From: Halovenus carboxidivorans
Lineage (GTDB): Archaea > Halobacteriota > Halobacteria > Halobacteriales > Haloarculaceae
Assembly: GCF_009831575.1 (NCBI RefSeq)
Contig: NZ_WUUT01000001.1
Coordinates: 581,345-645,344, forward strand
Direction: 5' to 3'
DNA length: 64,000 bases
Shown here piece after piece: positions 3,040-51,281 of this stretch. Each line of letters opens with the position of its first letter. Position 1 is the first letter of the stretch. The position numbers and the translations under genes were made by a program. A model generated the notes under the pieces. It was not told where the DNA came from. It did no database searches and saw only the letters and a program-made list of their open reading frames with translations.

Positions 3040-5124
3040 GTGAGTGTGGCTGTGCGCAGTCGAGTTCTCCACGGCGCCGTCGTCGTTTTCGCACTCGCCG
3101 GATTGCTGACAGTCGGCGTCGGCGGCGCGGCCGCCTCACACGGGGACGATATCGAGGAGACAGAGATTGTCGAGGTACAGACGGTTTCTGACGACCCCGA
3201 GCAGGGGGTCGTCCGCGTCGAACTGCAGTATCACATCGGCTCGGAGGTGCTGGGTCTGCGGACCGGACTCCGGAACTCGGAGTACGAGGTCACCGGCGTG
3301 GACGGGTTCGAGGCCATCGACGAGGGGAGATACGAGTGGGACGGACAGACGACCGACCCCACGATCGACGTTCGGGTCCCGATCAACGAGACCTCGTCTG
3401 GCGCCTACGACTACGTCGACGCAGGCGAGTGGCTGATCACCGACCGTCCGGTGCTGACCAGACTGGGCTGGCGTCCATCGCTGGAAGCCGAGGGCGAGAT
3501 CGAAGTCCGCCAACCCACGGCCGCGGGAGAGGAAGGAGTTGCGGCCGATGGGATGGTCTACCTCGGCGGGTACGAACGTTACAGTTTCAGCGCCGCCGGC
3601 GAACAGTTCGATCTCGTGATCTCCGAGGCGGCCGATCCGGCGTGGTCGCCCGCGGAGATCGGTGCTCGACTGGTCACCGCCTCCCGGCGGTTCGATGTCG
3701 GCGCCAGATCCGACCGACTGACGGTCTTCGCCGTGACCGATCCGCTCCGACGCGGCGGACTCGCAACCGGAACGAACGCCGCGGTCTGGGTCCACGAGGC
3801 GGGACTGACGGCCCCGCAGACGACGCTGTTTCACGAGTACGTCCACAGCAGACAGGCCTACAACCGCACCGACGCCGTCGAGTGGACAATCGAGGGTAGC
3901 GCCGACTACTTCGGTGCGCTGCTCGCCCTGAAGAACGGCAGTATCGAGTACCACCGCTTCTATCGCCTGCTCGACCGCGGCAACAGCTACGACGACGTGG
4001 TTCTCGCCGACGCCGACACCTGGGAGGGCACCGCCGCGCACTACGAACTCGGCTCGCTCGTTCTCGCCGCGATGGACGAGCGTCTCAGGGCGGCGGGCGC
4101 GAGTTACGCCGCCGTCCTCCGGGCGAAAAACGAGGCCGACGGCCAGATCACCGGCAACAGGTTCGCGTCGCTGGCCGCCGAGTTCGACAGCGGGATGGAC
4201 GCCTTCTTCGACCGCTACGTCCGGTCGAGGCCCCCGGAGATCTCCGTCCCCGACCCGACGGTCTACGACGGGCCGAACGACGGGGCGGCACTCGACGTTC
4301 GCGTTCCGGAGTTCGATCTCGACCCGGGCGAGAGGGAACCCGTGACAGTCACACTCGCGAACACCGGCACGGAGACCAGCCTCGCCCCGCAGATTTCAGT
4401 CAATACCTCCGGGAACGTCACCGTCGAACTCATCGACTCCGACGGCTCCGTCGTCACCGACACCGACGAGGGCTGGGTGTTCGACCACCTCCCGGCGGGT
4501 GAGGCCTACGATCTCACGTTCACCGTCGAGGCCAACCGCACCGATGGCGAACAGATCGCCGTCTCCGCGGGCGACCTGAGCAATCAGCGGGCGGCGACCA
4601 GCGTGACGCTGGACTCCAGCGACCCCCTCGGCGTGACACTCTCCCTCCCGGCCGAGGCGACCGCGGGCGAGCAGATCAACGCCACGGCGACGACGACGCC
4701 CGAGGAGGCGTCGATCACCCGCTACTCGTTCAGCGTCACCGGTCCCGGTACGCAGGTGACCGCCGACAGTTCCGGACAGGCGGCGACGTTCACTCCCGAG
4801 GAGGCCGGCACGTACACCGTCTCCGTCACGGCGACTGCCGCCGACGGCCGAACCGCAACGACCGAGGAGACCGTCGACGTGTCGCCGGTCCCGTCGGACG
4901 ATACCAGCGAGGAGACGGACGACACCGACGGGAGCGACGGCGATGGTACAGACGGAGACAGCACCGGGGAGGGCGAGACGACCGACGGCGACGATACCAG
5001 TTCGTCCGACGGAACCGACGCACCCGATCAGGGGGGGTCCGACGGCTTCGGTGACGGCTTCGGTCCGGCCGTCGGCGTCGGGGCTCTCCTCGCGTTGTCG
5101 CTTCTCGCTCGCCGCGCTCACTGA
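3040..5124 (+). CDS. secreted HExxH metallopeptidase-like protein with C-terminal membrane anchor
   Basis: A 694-residue exported protein. Residues 1-33 form a Sec-type signal peptide ending near AAASHG. Around residue 266 is HEYVHSRQ, an HExxH zinc motif, followed about 18 residues later by [10 protein letters not shown], the WxxEGxAxY pattern of gluzincin peptidases, whose Glu is the third zinc ligand. Residues 420-600 look like two beta-sandwich (CARDB- and PKD-like) domains. A Thr/Asp/Ser/Gly-rich linker (about 610-670) then leads to a hydrophobic helix and Arg-Arg tail. The tail resembles the haloarchaeal sorting signal cleaved by archaeosortase, but reads GFGPAVGV rather than PGF. The GTG at 3040 is the first start before the signal peptide; GTGs at 3046 and 3052 are also possible. 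The stop overlaps the convergent neighbour by 7 nt. Confidence 0.8.
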
Positions 5125-5606: not shown

Positions 5607-6449
5607 TCAGCCGAACTTCCCGGTGATGTAATCCTCGACGCGCTGGTGTTCGGGGTTCTCGAAAATCTTCTGGGTGTGGTCGTACTCGACCAGTTCGCCG
5701 CCGGTCAGGAAGACGGCGGTCATGTCCGAGATTCGGGCGGCCTGCTGCATGTTGTGGGTGACGACGACGACGGTGTAATCCTTGGCGAGGTCTTCGATCA
5801 GATCCTCGATTTTCGAGGTGGCGACCGGATCGAGCGCCGAGGCCGGCTCGTCCATCAGGATCACCTCCGGGTCGGGGGCAATCGCGCGAGCGATACAGAG
5901 TCGCTGTTGCTGACCGCCCGACAGGTCAAGTCCGGAGGTGTGTAGCTGATCTTTGACCTCGTCCCACAGCGCCGCGCGCCGCAGGGCGTCTTCGACCTGC
6001 TCGTCGAGATTTTCGACCTTGTCCTGGACGCGCAGGCCGTACGCGACGTTGTCGTAGATGCTCTTCGGGAAGGGGTTGGGTTCCTGAAAGACCATCCCGA
6101 CTGTCCGCCGAAGCGCGACCGGGTCGACGTCCTCGTCGTAGAGGTTCTTGCCCCGGAAGTACAGATTACCCTCGACTCGCGCGCTGGTGATCAGGTCGTT
6201 CATCCGGTTGACACACCGCAGAAACGTCGATTTCCCACAGCCCGAGGGCCCGATCAGCGCGGTCACCTGCTGCTCGGGAATCGGGAGGTTGATGTCGTTA
6301 AGCGCCTGCTCGTCGCCGTAGAACACGTCCAGATTCTCCGCCTCGATGATCGTCTCGCCGAGCGACTCCACCCCGGTATCTTCCGGCACCGTCGTCTGTG
6401 GCTGTCTGATCGATTCGCCTGTCTCCGTGGTTTCGTTCTGGAAGCTCAT
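5607..6449 (-). CDS. pstB: phosphate ABC transporter ATP-binding protein PstB
   Basis: A 280-residue ABC ATPase that energises high-affinity phosphate import. Walker A is GPSGCGKST (about residue 67), the signature LSGGQQQRL (about 175), Walker B VILMDEP (about 195), and the H-loop Thr-His-Asn (about 232). The sequence '[12 protein letters not shown]' after Walker A is characteristic of PstB rather than other ABC ATPases. The N-terminus has a roughly 35-residue extension before the ABC core, common in haloarchaea. It is an orphan here: pstS, pstC, pstA and phoU are absent on both sides, and the upstream neighbour is an unrelated membrane protein. A 275-bp AT-rich gap precedes it, so it probably has its own regulated promoter. 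Confidence 0.93.
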
Positions 6450-43291: not shown

Positions 43292-46267
43292 ATGTCCGCG
43301 GAGTCAGGGGGAATCTCCGTTCTCTGCGTCGAGTCCGAACCGGACCGAGCGGACCGGACCGTTCGACTGCTCGAAGCCGCCGACGACCGACTGACAGTTA
43401 CCGCCGTCTGCTCGGCCCAGAGCGCGCTCGAATATCTCGACGCCGACGGGATCGACTGCGTTCTGAGCGCGTACGCCCTCCCTGAGATCGACGGTCTGCA
43501 GTTTCTTCAGACCGTCCGTGCGGAGTATCCGAACCTGCCTTTCATTCTGTACACGACCGCCGCCTCGGAGGACATCGTCAGCGCCGCCGTGTCCGCAGAT
43601 GTCTCCGATCACCTCGACCGACCGCAGCAACCCGACGGCTACCAGAACCTCGCGGCCCGGATCAGGGCGGTCGTCGAGCGCGAACGTGTCCGGCGCGGCG
43701 CGGCCTCCGATCACGAACAGGCAAAGCGCGTCCTCGAAGCCTCTCCCGACGGCATTCTGGTCAGCGTCGAGCGCGAACTCGTCTACGCCAACCCGGCCGC
43801 CGCCGACCTGTTCGGCGCCGCCGAGTCCGACCTGCTCGGCGCCGACCCCGTCTCGCTGACCGACACCGACCCCGTGATCTGGGAGCCGAAACGGGCCCAG
43901 GCCGACGACGAGTTGCTGACCCGTCACCGGAGTTCGTTCCCGACGCTCGACGGCGGTCGCGTCGACACCGAACTGACGACGAACACCATCGAGTGGCAGT
44001 CCGGGACGGGGATCGTTGCCGTCCTGCGTGACGTAACCGAATCGGCCGATACCGAGCGAAACGTCGACCAAACTCGCACCTACCTGGAGGGGATCGTCAA
44101 CAGCGTCTCCGCGCTCATCTCGCTGAAAGATACCGAGGGGCGGTACCTCCTGATGAACCGCCGCTGTCGCGAACTGCTCGGTATCGACGAGTCGACGAAC
44201 GTCGTGGGCATGACCGACGACCAACTGTTCGACGAGCAACTCGCCGACAAACTCTCCGTCGACGAGAGCGATCTGTTCGAGACCGGCGAAACGAGCGAGT
44301 CCGAAGTGACGGTCCCGACGACGGAGGGCGAGCGGACGTTGCTGATCCGCAAGACCCCGCTGTTCGACGACGGCGATCCGTACGCCATCTGTGCCGTCGC
44401 GACGGATATCACGACCCAGAAGAACCGACAGCACGCGCTCACCGAGCGGGTCAAGGAACTGTCGGCGGTCCACCGCGTCGTCGACATGTTCAACGCCGAA
44501 CGCGAGAGGAACGAGGATCTGCTGTCGGAGTTCATCACCGGTCTCCCCGAGTCCTTCCAGTACCCGTCCCGGACCGACGCCCGGATCACGTACGGCGACC
44601 GGACTGTAACGACCGGAGAGTTCGACCCCGACTGCCCGGTGATCGACGCCGTCGGCCGAACCCAGAAGGGCCCGGATCTTTACCTCGAAGTTGCCTGTCG
44701 GCCGCCGGACGGCGAATCCGACCCGTTCCTCGCCGAGGAGCGCAGCCTCCTCGATACGCTGGCGAGCGTCATCGCCGGCTATCTCGAACGGCGGTCGTAC
44801 ATCGAAGAACTCCAGCGGTACGAGACGACGCTTCGCGCACTCGGTGATCCGGTCTACGCGCTCGACGCGGACGGCCGATTTACCTTCGTCAACGACGCCC
44901 TGCTCGACCGGACCGGCTACGACAAGTCGGAGATCCTCGGTGAGCACGCGTCGCTTTTGCTCACGGAGGAGGGCGTCGAGCGGGGCAGCGCGGTAATCCG
45001 GGACCTGCTGGACTCCCCGGAGGAGACACAGACCGCGAAGTGGGAGATGGAGCTGAAAACGGCCGACGGAGAACGGATCCCAGCAGAGAACCACGTCGCT
45101 TTGCTCCCGTTCGGTGAGGACGGCTTCCGCGGGACTGCCGGCGTCATCCGCGATATCACCGACCGGACCGAACGCGAGCGAGAGCTCCGGCGTCGAAAGG
45201 ATCTGCTCGTCCGCACCGAACGGATGGCCGACGTCGGCGGGTGGGAGCTCGATCTCGAAGCCGGACAGATCTACTGGACGGAGGGCGCGCGGCTGATCCA
45301 CGACGTCTCCGAGGAGTTCGAGCCGACGCCCGACAAGGCAATCGAGTTCTTCCACCCCGAGGACCGAGAGCGCATCAACCGGGCGGTCGCCCGGTGTCGG
45401 GAGACCGGTGAACCGTTCGACGCCGAGGTCCGCCTGATCACCGCCGAGGGCCGAGAACGGCTGATTCACATCCGCGGCGAGGCCGTCAGCGAGAACGGAA
45501 CCGAGACCGTCCGGGGGACGCTGCAGGACATCACCGAACTCCGGGAGAACGAACAGCAACTCACCGTCCTCAACCGCGTTCTCCGGCACAACCTGCGCAA
45601 CAGCCTCAACGTCGTGACCGCGAACGCCGAACTGCTCGTCGACCAGCTCCAGCAGTTCCGCTCCGCCGTCGACGAGCCGAACGAACCGACCGAGGCGGCG
45701 CTACGAGAGGCGGTCTCTGCGTTCCCATTCGCGGAAGCGCTCGACAACCTCGAACAGATCGAGACGAAGGCGTGGGAACTGCTCGCAATCGCCGACAAGT
45801 CCCGCGAACTCGGCGAGGTCATCGGACAGATCGACCACACGGGGCGGCTCGACATCGGGGACCTGCTGTCCTCGCTCGTCCAGGAGTACCGCCAGCAGTA
45901 CCCGGAGGCGACGATCAACCTCGACGCCGCCTCGGTGTCGGTCGAGGCCAGCGCGGAGTCGGTCTCGCTGGCGCTGGAAGAACTGCTCGAAAACGCCCTG
46001 AAACACGCCGGCTCGGCTCCGGTCGTCGACATCGCCGTCCGCCAACCCTCCGAGAGTCGCGTCGAGATCACGATCAAAGACGACGGGCCGGGTATCCCCG
46101 ACATCGAACGGCAGGCCCTCGAAGAGGGTGAGGAGACGGCGCTGAAACACTCCAGCGGATTCGGCCTGTGGACGGTCAACTGGCTGCTCGGTCGCCTCGG
46201 TGGGGCCGTCGCACTCGACGAGACCGAGCCGGGGACGCTCGTCCGGGTCGAACTCCCGGCCGCCTGA
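43292..46267 (+). CDS. large multi-PAS sensor histidine kinase with pseudo-receiver
   Basis: A 991-residue soluble kinase. Order: receiver-like (about 8-125), PAS (145-255), PAS (265-380, 'IVNSVSALISLKDTEGRY'), GAF-like (385-510, 'VKELSAVHRVVDMF'), PAS (515-640, 'LGDPVYALDADGRFTFVN'), PAS_3 fold (645-765, 'GGWELDLEAGQIYWT'), DHp with 'RVLRHNLRNSLNVV' (about 775) and HATPase with ELLENALKHAG, DDGPGIP and SGFGLWTVNW. The receiver reads 'DCVLSAYALPEIDG' where 'DCVLSDYxLP' is usual, so the phosphoacceptor Asp is Ala. The ATG at 43292 is preferred over a GTG at 43268. Confidence 0.92.
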   Translation: MSAESGGISVLCVESEPDRADRTVRLLEAADDRLTVTAVCSAQSALEYLDADGIDCVLSAYALPEIDGLQFLQTVRAEYPNLPFILYTTAASEDIVSAAVSADVSDHLDRPQQPDGYQNLAARIRAVVERERVRRGAASDHEQAKRVLEASPDGILVSVERELVYANPAAADLFGAAESDLLGADPVSLTDTDPVIWEPKRAQADDELLTRHRSSFPTLDGGRVDTELTTNTIEWQSGTGIVAVLRDVTESADTERNVDQTRTYLEGIVNSVSALISLKDTEGRYLLMNRRCRELLGIDESTNVVGMTDDQLFDEQLADKLSVDESDLFETGETSESEVTVPTTEGERTLLIRKTPLFDDGDPYAICAVATDITTQKNRQHALTERVKELSAVHRVVDMFNAERERNEDLLSEFITGLPESFQYPSRTDARITYGDRTVTTGEFDPDCPVIDAVGRTQKGPDLYLEVACRPPDGESDPFLAEERSLLDTLASVIAGYLERRSYIEELQRYETTLRALGDPVYALDADGRFTFVNDALLDRTGYDKSEILGEHASLLLTEEGVERGSAVIRDLLDSPEETQTAKWEMELKTADGERIPAENHVALLPFGEDGFRGTAGVIRDITDRTERERELRRRKDLLVRTERMADVGGWELDLEAGQIYWTEGARLIHDVSEEFEPTPDKAIEFFHPEDRERINRAVARCRETGEPFDAEVRLITAEGRERLIHIRGEAVSENGTETVRGTLQDITELRENEQQLTVLNRVLRHNLRNSLNVVTANAELLVDQLQQFRSAVDEPNEPTEAALREAVSAFPFAEALDNLEQIETKAWELLAIADKSRELGEVIGQIDHTGRLDIGDLLSSLVQEYRQQYPEATINLDAASVSVEASAESVSLALEELLENALKHAGSAPVVDIAVRQPSESRVEITIKDDGPGIPDIERQALEEGEETALKHSSGFGLWTVNWLLGRLGGAVALDETEPGTLVRVELPAA

Positions 46268-46312
46268 GACCGAACCCGACATTCATAAACCGCGCGGCGG
46301 AGTAGCGGAGGT

Positions 46313-48079
46313 ATGTTCCTTGCGATGCGTGCAGAGGTCGAGGAGGCGCTCACTGCGGCCCTCGACCGACTCGGATACCCCACCGACGATCTCGGTATCG
46401 AGGAGCCGCCGGAGGATCTCGACGCCGTTCTCGCTTCGAGCGTCGCCTTCCGGCTGGCGAGCGAGGCCGCCACTCCACCCCCGGCGGTCGCCGACGAACT
46501 GGCCGACGCGATCGACGCAGGCCCACAGGAGTACATCGGCCGGGTCGAAACCCGCGGCCCCTATCTCAACTTCTGGCCCAGCGAGCGGTACTTCGCGGAG
46601 ACGCTCGCGGAGGCACAGAGCGGGGAGTTCGGTACGCTCCCGGACCGCGAGACGAGCGTCGTCGTCGAGCACACGAGTGCGAACCCGACGGGGCCGGTCC
46701 ACGTCGGCCGCGCCCGCAACCCGATCATCGGTGACGCGCTCGCCCGGGTGCTCGAGTACGCCGGCTACGACGTGGAACGCCACTACTACGTCAACGACGC
46801 CGGCCGACAGATCGCCGTCTTCACGTGGGCGTACGACTTCTTCGACGAGGCAGATCTGCCCGAGCCCGAACGCGAGTCTCCGGAGTACGAGATGGTGCGG
46901 TACTACCGCGCGGCCAACACCTACCTCGAAGAGGAAGCCGACGAGGAGTCGGTCGAGGCCGCCGAAGCCGAGATCCAGTCGATCATGCAGGGGCTGGAGG
47001 AAGGCGACGAGTCGGCATACGACCGCGTCGGCGAGGTGGTCGATACTGTCCTCGGCGGGATGCGGGACACGCTCGAACGCCTCCCCGCCGAGTTCGACGA
47101 GTTCGTCAAGGAGACGCGGTTCATGCGCGACGGCTCGACCGACGAGATCATCGACCGCCTGAAGAACACGGAGTACGCCGTCTACGAGGACGACGCCTGG
47201 CAACTCGATCTGCCGGAGATCGACAAGAACCTCGTCTTCGTCCGGGAAGACGGTACCTCGCTCTACACGACGCGGGACCTGGCCCACCACGAGTGGAAGT
47301 TCGACAACTTCGACGAGGCCGTGACGGTGCTCGGCGAGGACCACGAACTGCAGGCCCGACAGCTCCGCTCTGCGCTGGAGATTCTCGGTAACGACACCGA
47401 CCGCCTGGGGACTGTCCACTACTCGTGGGTCACGCTGCCCGAGGGCGGGATGAGCACCCGCGAGGGAACCGGGATCGATCTGGACGACCTGCTGGACGAG
47501 GCCATCGACCGCGCCCGCCAGGAGGTCGAGGACCGCCTCGAAGACCGCATCCGCGACGACGACCTCTCCGAGGAGGACATCGACCGTATCGCACACCAGG
47601 TCGGCATCGGCGCGGTCCGCTACGACATCGTCTCGAAACAGCCGACGAAAGGCATCACCTTCGAGTGGGAGCGGGCCCTCGATTTCGAGGCCCAGAGCGC
47701 CCCCTACGTCCAGTACGTCCACGCTCGTGCGTCGGGAATCATCGCCGAGGCTCATGACGAAAACGCGGTCGATCCCGACGGACTCGACATCGACGTCGAC
47801 GCGAGCGACCTCGACACCGACGCCGAACGGACGCTCCTCCGAGAGATCGCCCGTTTCCCCGCGGTGATCGAGGAGGCGGCGGAGGATCTCCAACCACACG
47901 TCGTCGCCACCTACACGCGGGATCTGGCCGAAGCGTTCAACACCTTCTACCGGGAGTGTCCGGTGCTCGATGCCGACGACGAAACGCGAGACGCTCGCCT
48001 CGCGCTGGTCGTCGCCGCCCGTCACGCCGTCGGGAACGCGTTGGACGCCGTCGGCGTACAGGCACCCGATTCCATGTAA
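46313..48079 (+). CDS. argS: arginyl-tRNA synthetase
   Basis: A 588-residue class I synthetase that charges tRNA-Arg. The HIGH motif is '[13 protein letters not shown]' (about residue 124-136), the KMSKS counterpart '[11 protein letters not shown]' near 380, and the C-terminal DALR anticodon domain ends with '[19 protein letters not shown]' (split: [18 protein letters not shown]). The N-terminal Add1 domain (about 1-100) is present. Length is normal for archaea. The ATG at 46313 gives [13 protein letters not shown]; a second Met four codons later is possible. The TAA at 48077-48079 lies at the very edge of the 65-bp structured element. Confidence 0.95.
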
Positions 48080-48144
48080 CCCATCTTTTTCCCGCTCGGG
48101 TCGCCGAAGGCGACCGCTCGCGGCAAAAACATGGGTGAAAAAGG
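48080..48144 (+). repeat. structured ~65-bp element, left copy (inverted partner at 49021-49084)
   Basis: Starts immediately after the argS stop. It reads CCCATCTTTTT, then a hairpin GGTCGCC-GAA-GGCGACC (48099-48115), then GCAAAAACATGGGTGAAAAAGG-like sequence ending at 48144 (split: GCAAAAACATGGG, TGAAAAAGG). Its ends are themselves mutually complementary (CCCATxTTTTT with AAAAAxATGGG), so the whole element can fold as one long hairpin. The reverse complement of 49021-49084 matches it over nearly the whole length. T-runs on both strands suggest a bidirectional terminator. Confidence 0.75.
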
Positions 48145-48338
48145 CTCGACCTCGACCTGCGGTCTCGGTCGAGGGAACCGCGCTCGCTGCGCTCGCGCGG
48201 AGAGGAAAGATAAGGCGAGTCAGTCACTAACAAAGACCACGGACGATAGGTACCTCACTGCACCCGTTCATTGAGTGTCGAGGCGAAGACGGCTGGGAGT
48301 ATATTGAGTCAGATATCACGCATCCCGGTGGCTATGCA

Positions 48339-48833
48339 ATGATGGCCTGCCTCTTCGGCTGGCGGAACTACTGCAATTACGAACCAATCGCTGGGGAACG
48401 GGGGCTACCGAAGGATATTAGCGACGAACTCAGCCAGCTACTGGGAGATCCGCCCACCTGCAGTTGGATCGGACTCTGGGAGATCGAGCGAATCGACTGG
48501 GGTGAAACGGCAAACGAAATAGACTCCCGAACGAGTTTTTACGATTCCGACGGTAACTACGTGAAGAAAGCCGCCGGATTTTCGCTACCCGTGAGCAACG
48601 AAGACGAGGGTTATATGAACCGTGTCCGCGGTGGCGACGAAGTGACGGTGACATTAACTGATGACTACTTTGGATTCGAAGCCGGTGATGAGGTAACGTT
48701 AGTGAGAGAACTGCGGGACCGCGAATATGCGAGGTCTGATGGATGGAGACGGATTTTCAACGAGATGAGAGAATTGGCTGACGAGTACGGTGGAGAGGGG
48801 AATGTTCGGTTGGTTGCAGTGGCTATGGGGTAA
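48339..48833 (+). CDS. phage-like hypothetical protein in an AT-richer insert, start codon possibly lost
   Basis: A 164-residue protein from the first ATG. Sequence such as 'FGWRNYCNY', 'GERGLPKDISDELSQLLG' and 'WEIERIDW' recalls a family in phages and actinobacteria ('ADVRN', 'SEPRGLPxDMS', 'LEELLAYDW'). The same frame stays open upstream to 48228 and reads IGTSLHPFIECRGEDGWEY, where that family starts MG..xHPFIE. The expected start ATG is ATA at 48246-48248, so the gene either uses a non-standard start, starts at 48339 as a truncated protein, or is decaying. Base composition is clearly more AT-rich than its neighbours, a sign of transfer. Function unknown. Similarity is from memory. Confidence 0.6.
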   Translation: MMACLFGWRNYCNYEPIAGERGLPKDISDELSQLLGDPPTCSWIGLWEIERIDWGETANEIDSRTSFYDSDGNYVKKAAGFSLPVSNEDEGYMNRVRGGDEVTVTLTDDYFGFEAGDEVTLVRELRDREYARSDGWRRIFNEMRELADEYGGEGNVRLVAVAMG

Positions 48834-48995
48834 CCAGTTGTCACTGGCTGTCTGTCTGTTGAATGCACGATCCAACTCTTGCGTCGCGGCTGGTGACAAG
48901 CGGTGTACCGACGGTTATTTCACCAAGTCGGGCAGGACCAATGAGGTCAGAAACTCGCTCTAGTCGGCATTCGCCGAGCGAAGCGAGGCGATTCT

Positions 48996-49027
48996 CCGGA
49001 CGCGCCGACGGCGCGTCCGGCCTTTTT
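48996..49027 (+). terminator. hairpin followed by T-run, downstream of the insert gene
   Basis: Perfect 11-bp arms CCGGACGCGCC (48996-49006) and GGCGCGTCCGG (49010-49020) around GAC, followed by CCTTTTT (49021-49027). This has the form of an intrinsic terminator for plus-strand transcripts from the 48339 gene, and overlaps the right structured element. Confidence 0.6.
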
Positions 49028-49084
49028 CACCCATGTTTTTGCGTCGAGCGGTGCGCTTTGCGCACCCGAGACGGAAAAAGATGG
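49021..49084 (-). repeat. structured ~65-bp element, right copy (inverted partner at 48080-48144)
   Basis: On the minus strand it starts directly after the minD stop as CCATCTTTTTCC, continues with CTCGGG and the hairpin GGTGCGC-AAA-GCGCACC (49049-49065), and ends GCAAAAACATGGGTG-AAAAAGG. Compared with the left copy, the stem bases differ on both arms together (GGTCGCC/GGCGACC against GGTGCGC/GCGCACC), so pairing is kept while the flanks are nearly identical. Confidence 0.75.
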
Positions 49085-49891
49085 TTAGCCGAAGATCCCG
49101 CCGAAGACGCCGCCGTCCTCCTCCTCTTCGTCCTCGTCCTCGTCGTCGAGAAACCACTGGCTGTCGAAGACGCGTTCGAGGTCCGCCGCGGTCGCGCCCT
49201 CGAAAAAGACCTGTTCGAGCGAGCCCGCGAGTTGGCGGTAGGCGTCTGCCGGATCGCTGTCGGGGGCGTTTTCAAGAAGGGGTTCCTCCTTCGTGGCGTC
49301 GATGTCGTCGGGGATCACGCCGAGCAGCGGCACGTCGAACTCGTCTGCGATCTCCTGGACGTAGGTGTCGCGGTTGACCCGGGTGATGATCGCGCCGATC
49401 ACTTCGCCGTCGACGCGTTCGGTGAGGTCCGCGGTCTTGATGGTGTCGTTGACCGCGACGTCGTCCGGCGTCGTCACCAGCAACACCCCGTCGGCGAGGC
49501 CGAGCGGGACGGTCGTCTCGTGGCTCAGCCCCGCACCCGTATCGACCAGCACCACGTCGAAGGTGTTTTTCAGCGTGTTGATCACTTTCCGGAGTTTCGC
49601 CGGGTCGGCCTCAGCGAAGGCTTCGAGGCTCTGCTCGCCCGGCACGACAGTCATCCCCATCTGCGCGTCGGTCAGCGCCGCGCTGACGGTCTCTTCGCTC
49701 GCGAGCACCTCGTGGATACTCGTCTCGTACTCGAGGCCGAGCATGTTGCCGAGGTTCGCCATCCCCAGATCAGCGTCGACGACGACGGTGTCGTAGCCGT
49801 TCTCCTCGAGTGCTGCCGCGATGTTGATCGCTGTGGTGGTCTTCCCGACGCCTCCCTTCCCACCGGCGACCGTGCAGACGTACCCCGCCAT
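49085..49891 (-). CDS. minD: MinD/ParA-type ATPase
   Basis: A 268-residue deviant-Walker ATPase. Walker A is GGKGGVGKTTTAIN (residues 10-23), switch I 'VVVDADLGMANLGNMLG' (about 37) and Walker B-like 'VVLVDTGAGL' (about 113). The C-terminus is unusual: 'FLDDEDEDEEEEDGGVFGGIFG' (split: DDEDEDEEEE, GGVFGGIFG), a strongly acidic tail ending in a short hydrophobic tip that may replace the amphipathic membrane helix. Haloarchaea have several MinD paralogues that position taxis arrays and archaella rather than the division ring. The ATG at 49891 is preceded by a TATA box (49921-49927). Confidence 0.88.
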   Translation of the reverse strand: MAGYVCTVAGGKGGVGKTTTAINIAAALEENGYDTVVVDADLGMANLGNMLGLEYETSIHEVLASEETVSAALTDAQMGMTVVPGEQSLEAFAEADPAKLRKVINTLKNTFDVVLVDTGAGLSHETTVPLGLADGVLLVTTPDDVAVNDTIKTADLTERVDGEVIGAIITRVNRDTYVQEIADEFDVPLLGVIPDDIDATKEEPLLENAPDSDPADAYRQLAGSLEQVFFEGATAADLERVFDSQWFLDDEDEDEEEEDGGVFGGIFG

Positions 49892-50033
49892 TCTTGATAT
49901 GTAGCATCTGTACTCGCCACGATATAAAGCCATTCGTCTCTCCTGAGAGGTTCGACGGGCGGCGCGAGCGTCCGGTCCGGAGCCGACGTGGCAGGTCAAC
50001 AGGTACTTACAGCAGACCGGCCAAATACAGCCA

Positions 50034-51281
50034 ATGAGCGAGTCCGAGCACGAGCAGACGGACAAACAAAAATACGAGTTCCAGAAGGTAATCGAGGAAC
50101 TCAAGGATTATCGCGGCTCCGGGACGCAACTCGTCACGATTTACGTTCCGGAGGAACGGCAGATCAGCGACGTCGTCGCCCACGTTACCCAGGAACACTC
50201 CGAGGCGAGCAACATCAAGTCCAAGGAGACCCGAACGAACGTCCAGGACGCTCTCAAAAGCATCAAAGACCGGCTGAAATACTACGGCAACACCCCGCCG
50301 GAAAACGGGATGGTGCTGTTCTCCGGGGCCGTCGACTCCGGCGGCGGACAGACCGAGATGATCACCCGCGTACTGGAGAGTCCGCCCCAGCCAATCGAAT
50401 CCTTCCGGTATCACTGCGACGCGGAGTTTCTGACCGAACCGTTAGAGGAGATGATGGGCGACAAGGGCCTGTTCGGACTGATCGTCCTGGACCGCCGCGA
50501 GGCGAACGTCGGCTGGCTCCGCGGTAAACGCGTCGAACCGGTCAAATCCGCCACCTCACTCGTCCCGGGCAAGCAGCGCAAAGGTGGTCAGTCCGCCCAG
50601 CGATTCGCCCGCCTCCGTCTCGAAGCCATCGACAACTTCTATCAGGAAGTCGCCGGCATGGCGAACGACCTGTTCGTCGACCAGCGCCACGAGATGGACG
50701 GCGTCCTCGTCGGCGGTCCCTCACCGACCAAAGACGAGTTCCTCGACGGCGACTATCTCCACCACGAACTCCAGGATATGGTCCTCGGGAAGTTCGACGT
50801 GGCCTACACCGACGAGTCGGGGCTGTACGACCTCGTCGACGCCGCAGACGAGGTGCTCGCAGAACACGAGGTCCTGGAGGACAAGCAGACGATGGAGGAG
50901 TTCTTCGAGCAACTCCACGACGGCAACAAGGCGACCTACGGGTTCGGGCCGACCCGTGAGAACCTGATGATGGGTGCCGTCGAGACGCTGCTGATCAGCG
51001 AGGACCTCCGGAAGGATGTCGTCGCATACGAGTGTCCCAACGGTCACGACGAGTACGAGTTCATCGACCGGACCGAGGAGACGCCGACCCACGAGTGTTC
51101 CCGCTGTGGCGAGACCGTCGAGGAGGGCGAACGCGAGGACGCCATCGACCACCTGATGGAGTTGGCCGACCAGCGCGGCAGCGAGACGATGTTCATCTCG
51201 ACGGACTTCGAGAAGGGCGAACAGCTACTGACCGCCTTCGGCGGCGTCGCGGGACTGCTGCGGTACTCGACGGGCGTCTGA
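50034..51281 (+). CDS. prf1: peptide chain release factor aRF1
   Basis: A 415-residue archaeal release factor that reads all three stop codons and hydrolyses peptidyl-tRNA at the ribosome. The stop-decoding NIKS motif is in 'SEASNIKSKETRTNV' near residue 61, and the catalytic GGQ is in 'KQRKGGQSAQRF' near 182. The C-terminal domain with the zinc-like CPNG...CSRCGE (about 335-365) and 'DHLMELADQRGSETMFISTD' (split: DHLMELADQRG, SETMFISTD) is complete. It is divergent from minD across 142 bp. Confidence 0.96.
   Translation: MSESEHEQTDKQKYEFQKVIEELKDYRGSGTQLVTIYVPEERQISDVVAHVTQEHSEASNIKSKETRTNVQDALKSIKDRLKYYGNTPPENGMVLFSGAVDSGGGQTEMITRVLESPPQPIESFRYHCDAEFLTEPLEEMMGDKGLFGLIVLDRREANVGWLRGKRVEPVKSATSLVPGKQRKGGQSAQRFARLRLEAIDNFYQEVAGMANDLFVDQRHEMDGVLVGGPSPTKDEFLDGDYLHHELQDMVLGKFDVAYTDESGLYDLVDAADEVLAEHEVLEDKQTMEEFFEQLHDGNKATYGFGPTRENLMMGAVETLLISEDLRKDVVAYECPNGHDEYEFIDRTEETPTHECSRCGETVEEGEREDAIDHLMELADQRGSETMFISTDFEKGEQLLTAFGGVAGLLRYSTGV

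Follow-up and report, generated by a model that had tools for sequence, protein, structure and literature searches.

In the 64,000-nucleotide stretch of Halovenus carboxidivorans DNA analyzed here (the window), a foreign gene appears to have arrived between argS and minD and to have lost its ATG start codon later, and, by comparison with related sequences, the gene is probably a start-loss pseudogene of very young age. According to this reconstruction, a gene of a phage- or plasmid-linked family would have come between the two chromosomal genes, flanked by two inverted palindromic elements; the ATG would afterward have mutated to ATA, the change being shown by homology and its timing inferred; and the full-length protein would probably be made no more, because leaderless transcripts, which are common in haloarchaea, need AUG. 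Purifying selection would have acted before the start was lost, which would be the reason why the remainder of the frame is still intact. The gene would thereby represent a clean, ordinary case of a recent acquisition at its apparent first inactivating step, as well as a natural test of haloarchaeal initiation at AUA. Alone, the start-lost gene is a modest finding; the palindromes that bracket it are the more interesting part.

Table 1. Features of the argS-minD region (window coordinates).
Feature	Position	Strand	Remarks
argS	46313–48079	+	Left neighbor
Left inverted arm	48081–48150	+	Palindromic hairpin element directly after the argS stop
Inter-arm DNA	48151–49014		GC 0.559, below surroundings
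Start-lost cargo gene	48246–48833	+	195 codons plus stop; ATA versus ATG of relatives; phrog_10141 family
Ancestral start position (by homologue comparison)	48246–48248	+	Codon ATA
Longest ATG-started ORF of the cargo-gene frame	48339–48833	+	164 aa; starts at internal Met32
Right inverted arm	49015–49084	−	Identical element type directly after the minD stop
MinD/ParA-type ATPase gene (minD)	49085–49900	−	Right neighbor; start codon putative

Reading frame and start codon of the cargo gene

An earlier sequence-only reading of this region had claimed that a coding-like frame remains open upstream of position 48339 and that ATA stands where Met is expected. Both claims were borne out. After a TAA at 48228–48230, the frame is open from 48231 up to its closing TAA at 48831–48833, and 48339 is the earliest in-frame ATG. 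The five codons that separate the upstream stop from the ATA (CAA, AGA, CCA, CGG, and ACG) include no ATG, GTG, TTG, or CTG. Readthrough from the ORF that ends at 48230 was ruled out; that ORF overlaps argS, in a different frame. When codons 2 to 31 were compared with those of the Halorientalis marina copy, which begins with ATG, 14 codons differed, 11 synonymously and 3 nonsynonymously, and protein identity over this segment was 90%. Among the 12 codons with a single-base difference, 1 was nonsynonymous, against a random expectation of 77% (P = 9e-7). Because codons 2 to 31 show such clear coding constraint, the ATG at 48339 is not the original start.

A homology search with the extended frame yielded clear matches to the upstream extension, and the starts of the homologues proved equivalent to the position of the ATA and not to 48339. 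The column of the window ATA is occupied by ATG in 10 of the 10 open-frame homologues read (L023, L051, L024, L003, L004, L025, L029, L058, L059, and L060, the last with a C-terminal end divergent from the other homologues). Close homologues span all 195 residues, from the ATA codon to the C terminus. Identity to the window protein is 79% for the H. marina plasmid copy, 73 to 74% for the Natronoglomus mannanivorans copies, and 55 to 56% for the copy on the Natrialba magadii plasmid pNMAG02; matches were found in 35 plasmid records, 4 of which were read. The pNMAG02 gene (L024, 6001–6591) is annotated as starting at codon 20 despite an ATG at codon 1. Two broken copies were also seen. The one from Streptomyces (L026, 3001–3612) has kept the Met codon and carries a stop at codon 12. 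The one from Natronolimnohabitans (L052, near 5960–6147; tblastn match limited to residues 13 to 61) is frameshifted and truncated and, in an alignment made by eye, has ATA at the start position. It is the sole other ATA copy seen, and no intact relative among those read keeps a nonstandard start.

Possible decay of the gene and alternative readings of its start

No stops or frameshifts occur across the 195 codons, and the start codon is the sole lesion. In a four-taxon codon model (a custom script) with synonymous sites near saturation, omega was 0.083 on the window branch versus 0.049 elsewhere (P = 0.42), and an omega of 1 on the window branch was only modestly rejected (P = 0.016). Lineage-specific changes at sites where the other three sequences agree numbered 5 in the window gene, 5 in Halorientalis, and 10 in Natronoglomus. 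Selection thus acted over most of the window branch; therefore, the loss of the start, if it silenced the gene, is recent. The earlier suggestion that the gene is decaying stood in part: the ATG is lost, but the frame has no stops or frameshifts and its omega is no different from that of the relatives, so that the sign of decay is the start codon itself. With every other part of the gene intact, a very young start-loss pseudogene is the probable reading. The gene resembles known start-codon-loss pseudogenes in that ATG is replaced by a codon that is not a start in the relatives read, and it differs from them in having no second lesion so far.

A shorter protein could be made from the ATG at 48339 or at 48342, perhaps through a new leaderless transcript. 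These in-frame ATGs are present, and AT-rich motifs (TATATT and AGATATC) lie ~22 to 39 bases upstream of 48339; judged from the sequence, however, such a product seems rather unlikely. The starts of the relatives lie earlier, and the predicted structure (mean pLDDT, 86.8) has strands at residues 4 to 13 and 16 to 20, both of which would be missing, together with the invariant Glu10, from a product begun at Met32.

Full-length translation might persist from the nonstandard codon ATA or from the adjoining ACG at 48243, as would be consistent with the wholly intact frame and the low omega. The haloarchaeal start rule is not absolute, because Halobacterium salinarum is cited as having a GUC start (PMC4574771), and AUG, GUG, and UUG are all functional on SD-less leadered transcripts (PMC3986360). 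However, in a Haloferax reporter, UUG had no detectable activity and GUG was weak, AUG being 5 to 37 times more efficient (PMC4574771), while leaderless initiation is described as strictly requiring AUG (PMC3986360). For 61,358 ancestral AUG starts, the switches listed in the available part of another study comprise 363 to GUG, 113 to UUG, 2 to CUG, 1 to AUU, and 0 to AUA (PMC5622118). The presence of ATG in every open-frame homologue read also argues against initiation at ATA or ACG, as does the lack of a clear TATA-like box upstream, according to a crude hexamer score that is not decisive for the relatives either. We consider translation from these codons distinctly unlikely; the cited start-codon papers together favor a fresh pseudogene over AUA initiation. 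Disrupted genes are reportedly present in most genomes, and start calls are often wrong where GC is high (PMC4500146).

The ATA could also be a base error of the assembly, as it concerns a single base in a single genome of the species. The assembly consists of 10 contigs and is 98% complete, and the remaining frame is open, which makes an error here improbable. Finally, the view that the frame upstream of 48339 is open by chance and that the gene begins at 48339, the first ATG/GTG/TTG start given by the ORF list, has almost no chance of being correct, being already contradicted by the constraint on codons 2 to 31 and by their identity to the ATG-started Halorientalis copy.

Protein family and proposed arrival at the argS-minD site

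In a profile search, the window protein matched phrog_10141 (E = 4.9e-7, residues 19 to 190), with a weak second match to phrog_17909 (E = 4.6e-4); neither family is annotated with a function. All 5 relatives scanned matched phrog_10141, and 3 of them also matched phrog_17909. Among predicted viral protein structures, the top match to the model came from Pseudomonas phage PA7 (E = 7.2e-6; TM-score, 0.53/0.45). Partial matches in the phage collection were obtained with the distant homologues L004 and L025, to 4 Paenibacillus phage records for one and to 1 Mycobacterium phage record for the other; L004 (genome G044) adjoins genes that look phage-like by eye. The assignment of the cargo gene to a phage-associated family, made in the sequence-only reading, was thus upheld by the profile match but has to be qualified: a search of the phage collection with the window protein found nothing, some of the nearest copies are plasmid genes, and the gene is flanked by argS and minD. 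With phrog_10141 and the MGTSLH/MGCDIH-type proteins it shares core residues and a profile match over most of its length; it differs in lacking an ATG start and in lying between chromosomal housekeeping genes and not in a phage genome.

Other searches were largely negative. Pfam gave nothing for the cargo gene and no more than weak rows for four relatives; in NCBIfam, the gene had a single weak row and three relatives had no row; and PADLOC had no match to the gene or to three relatives. The PDB returned one row by sequence (E = 0.82) and nothing by fold at E of 0.001 or better; FKBP-like fold rows were set aside as weak (Z up to 3.4, residues 91 to 156). Relatives were not found in viral contigs with three queries, and no paper was found in a literature search for the string MGCDIH.

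The proposal that the gene was recently captured is supported by its absence from all 17 further genomes of the genus, of which 13 are less than 90% complete, and by its low GC3 (0.59 versus 0.87 for argS and minD). Across the family, 4 of 146 genomes, including the window genome, matched the gene at E of 0.001 or better. The insert is, as had been claimed, more AT-rich than its surroundings, with a GC content of 0.534 for the gene versus 0.658 to 0.665 for the 600 bases outside each arm. The gap between argS and minD is 1,005 bases in the window, while in two relatives (G097 and G107) the two genes are convergent and lie a few tens of bases apart. Since argS and minD are nearly adjacent in these two relatives, the two genomes from which the near-empty site is known, the gene would have arrived in the lineage of the window genome. 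For 9 further genomes of the genus, 1,500 bases beyond argS were read and contained no minD match; 4 genomes gave 520 bases or fewer to read beyond argS, and argS had no match at E of 1e-100 in G111 or G104. Gene order around argS varies within the genus.

Palindromic elements and inward-facing pairs

The two arms that flank the cargo gene are 70 nt each and 81% complementary. The same element follows minD in the closest relative by minD (G111), whose contig stops 135 bases beyond this gene. A covariance model was built on four element copies, of which the window genome supplied three; in that genome it gave 14 hits at E of 1 or better, the top four of which form two inward-facing pairs. At E of 1e-5, the ~68-bp element was detected in 132 of 146 family genomes and in all 22 genera, at most 35 candidates being scored per genome. 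Counts at this threshold in matching genomes were at least 1 to 44 copies. An alignment of 43 distinct copies shows two-sided changes in 9 of the 16 base pairs, with 99.1% of cells paired, and a covariation score that 0 of 500 shuffles reached; having been fitted to the model, this alignment is biased toward the model structure. Rfam had no match in 46000–50200, and the element pattern had no exact match in viral contigs. Among the titles listed by our literature searches, we recognized none as describing the element, although an earlier description may exist. Like palindrome-associated transposable elements (PATEs) and REP/BIME-type palindromes, the elements are dispersed palindromes without coding capacity, and PATEs, in the available part of their description, likewise have palindromes close to their termini. 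The Haloarculaceae element differs from both in its length of ~68 bp and in that some copies are paired inward around foreign-looking DNA.

To describe pairing, we counted element neighbors less than 3 kb apart. In a set of 154 elements from 9 genomes (145 plus 9 of the 14 window-genome hits, the five weakest being left out), 4 such neighbors were convergent and 11 tandem, with none divergent. A second set (150 listed of 167 elements, 6 genomes) contained 3 convergent, 1 divergent, and 16 tandem neighbors; the lone divergent pair is 2,978 bases apart and holds ordinary-looking genes (GC 0.644). One further convergent pair was L088/L117. AT-rich DNA is enclosed by 6 of the 8 convergent pairs, or 5 of 7 without the window pair, with an inner GC of 0.514 to 0.559 versus 0.622 to 0.693 outside. 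The two convergent pairs without an AT-rich interior are those of G077 (GC 0.658) and G063 (GC 0.61, 300 bases). Inside the G080 pair, none of the ORFs listed exceeds 70 aa. By eye, no transposase-like ORF was seen among the inner ORFs listed, three of which were covered by a Pfam scan.

Two of the pairs, in G081 and G078 (L118 and L117), share one site. It lies between two genes, one encoding a product with RHVFLA at its C terminus and the other a product that begins with MSVIRLVWATATG. Identity in the flanks is 88% over 1,589 bases and 90% over 1,276 bases, while the inner stretches, of 549 and 1,471 bases, match only as short element-tail pieces. The G081 cargo comprises a NikR-type regulator (PF08753, E = 4.8e-19) and a NicO-like transporter (PF03824, E = 1.1e-5, under the curated cutoff), and that of G078 a 136-aa ORF that is lipoprotein-like by eye. 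From these alignments, the site looks like one of cargo replacement. At the argS-minD site, the states seen are insert versus near-empty, the latter in two genomes; unrelated interiors were seen at the G078/G081 site. The second inward-facing pair of the window genome (L075, 2536–2602 on the plus strand and 3256–3322 on the minus strand; G000 C1:911035-911821) lies between genes that resemble cdc48 and purH by eye. Its interior has a GC of 0.531 and holds a coding-looking relic with in-frame stops. The G144 pair likewise follows a gene taken by eye for a cdc48-type ATPase.

We tentatively propose that inward-facing palindromic pairs in Haloarculaceae mark borders within which foreign DNA enters and is replaced while the flanks are conserved, the cargo gene being a passenger. 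Under this proposal, cargo would often be unselected and would therefore decay, as is suggested by the start-lost gene and the stop-ridden L075 relic. The pattern is a lead and not a proven mechanism: the palindromes may drive exchange or merely mark gene ends that tolerate insertion. Most of the copies listed lack an inverted partner nearby, and single copies show no AT-rich side, both of which count against palindromes as drivers. In Haloquadratum walsbyi, deletion-coupled insertions have been described for which, in the available part of the report, no conserved targeting sequence was seen and the mechanism was left open (PMC3119063). The G078/G081 site resembles these in having unrelated DNA between near-identical flanks; in contrast to them, it has palindromic elements at both borders. 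With foreign-looking DNA bracketed by palindrome pairs at more than one site, such pairs could account for the way in which haloarchaea exchange DNA at fixed positions, a question left open there. If the proposal is true, deletion-coupled insertions would gain a recognizable boundary and a testable mechanism, recombination at palindromes.

The single copies were also considered. AT-rich DNA on the 3′ side of single elements was unsupported (34 elements; Wilcoxon P = 0.31), in a set that counted L082, which has no 3′ sequence, as GC 0 and that includes the pair member L088; without L082, mean GC is about 0.648 on the 3′ side versus 0.657 on the 5′ side. Flanking direct duplications were present in two of five single copies tested, L078 and L079 (36 nt at 97% and 66 nt at 98%). 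In G141 (C1:2703787-2705397), at least 10 element copies are arranged in tandem with a spacing of 171 bp.
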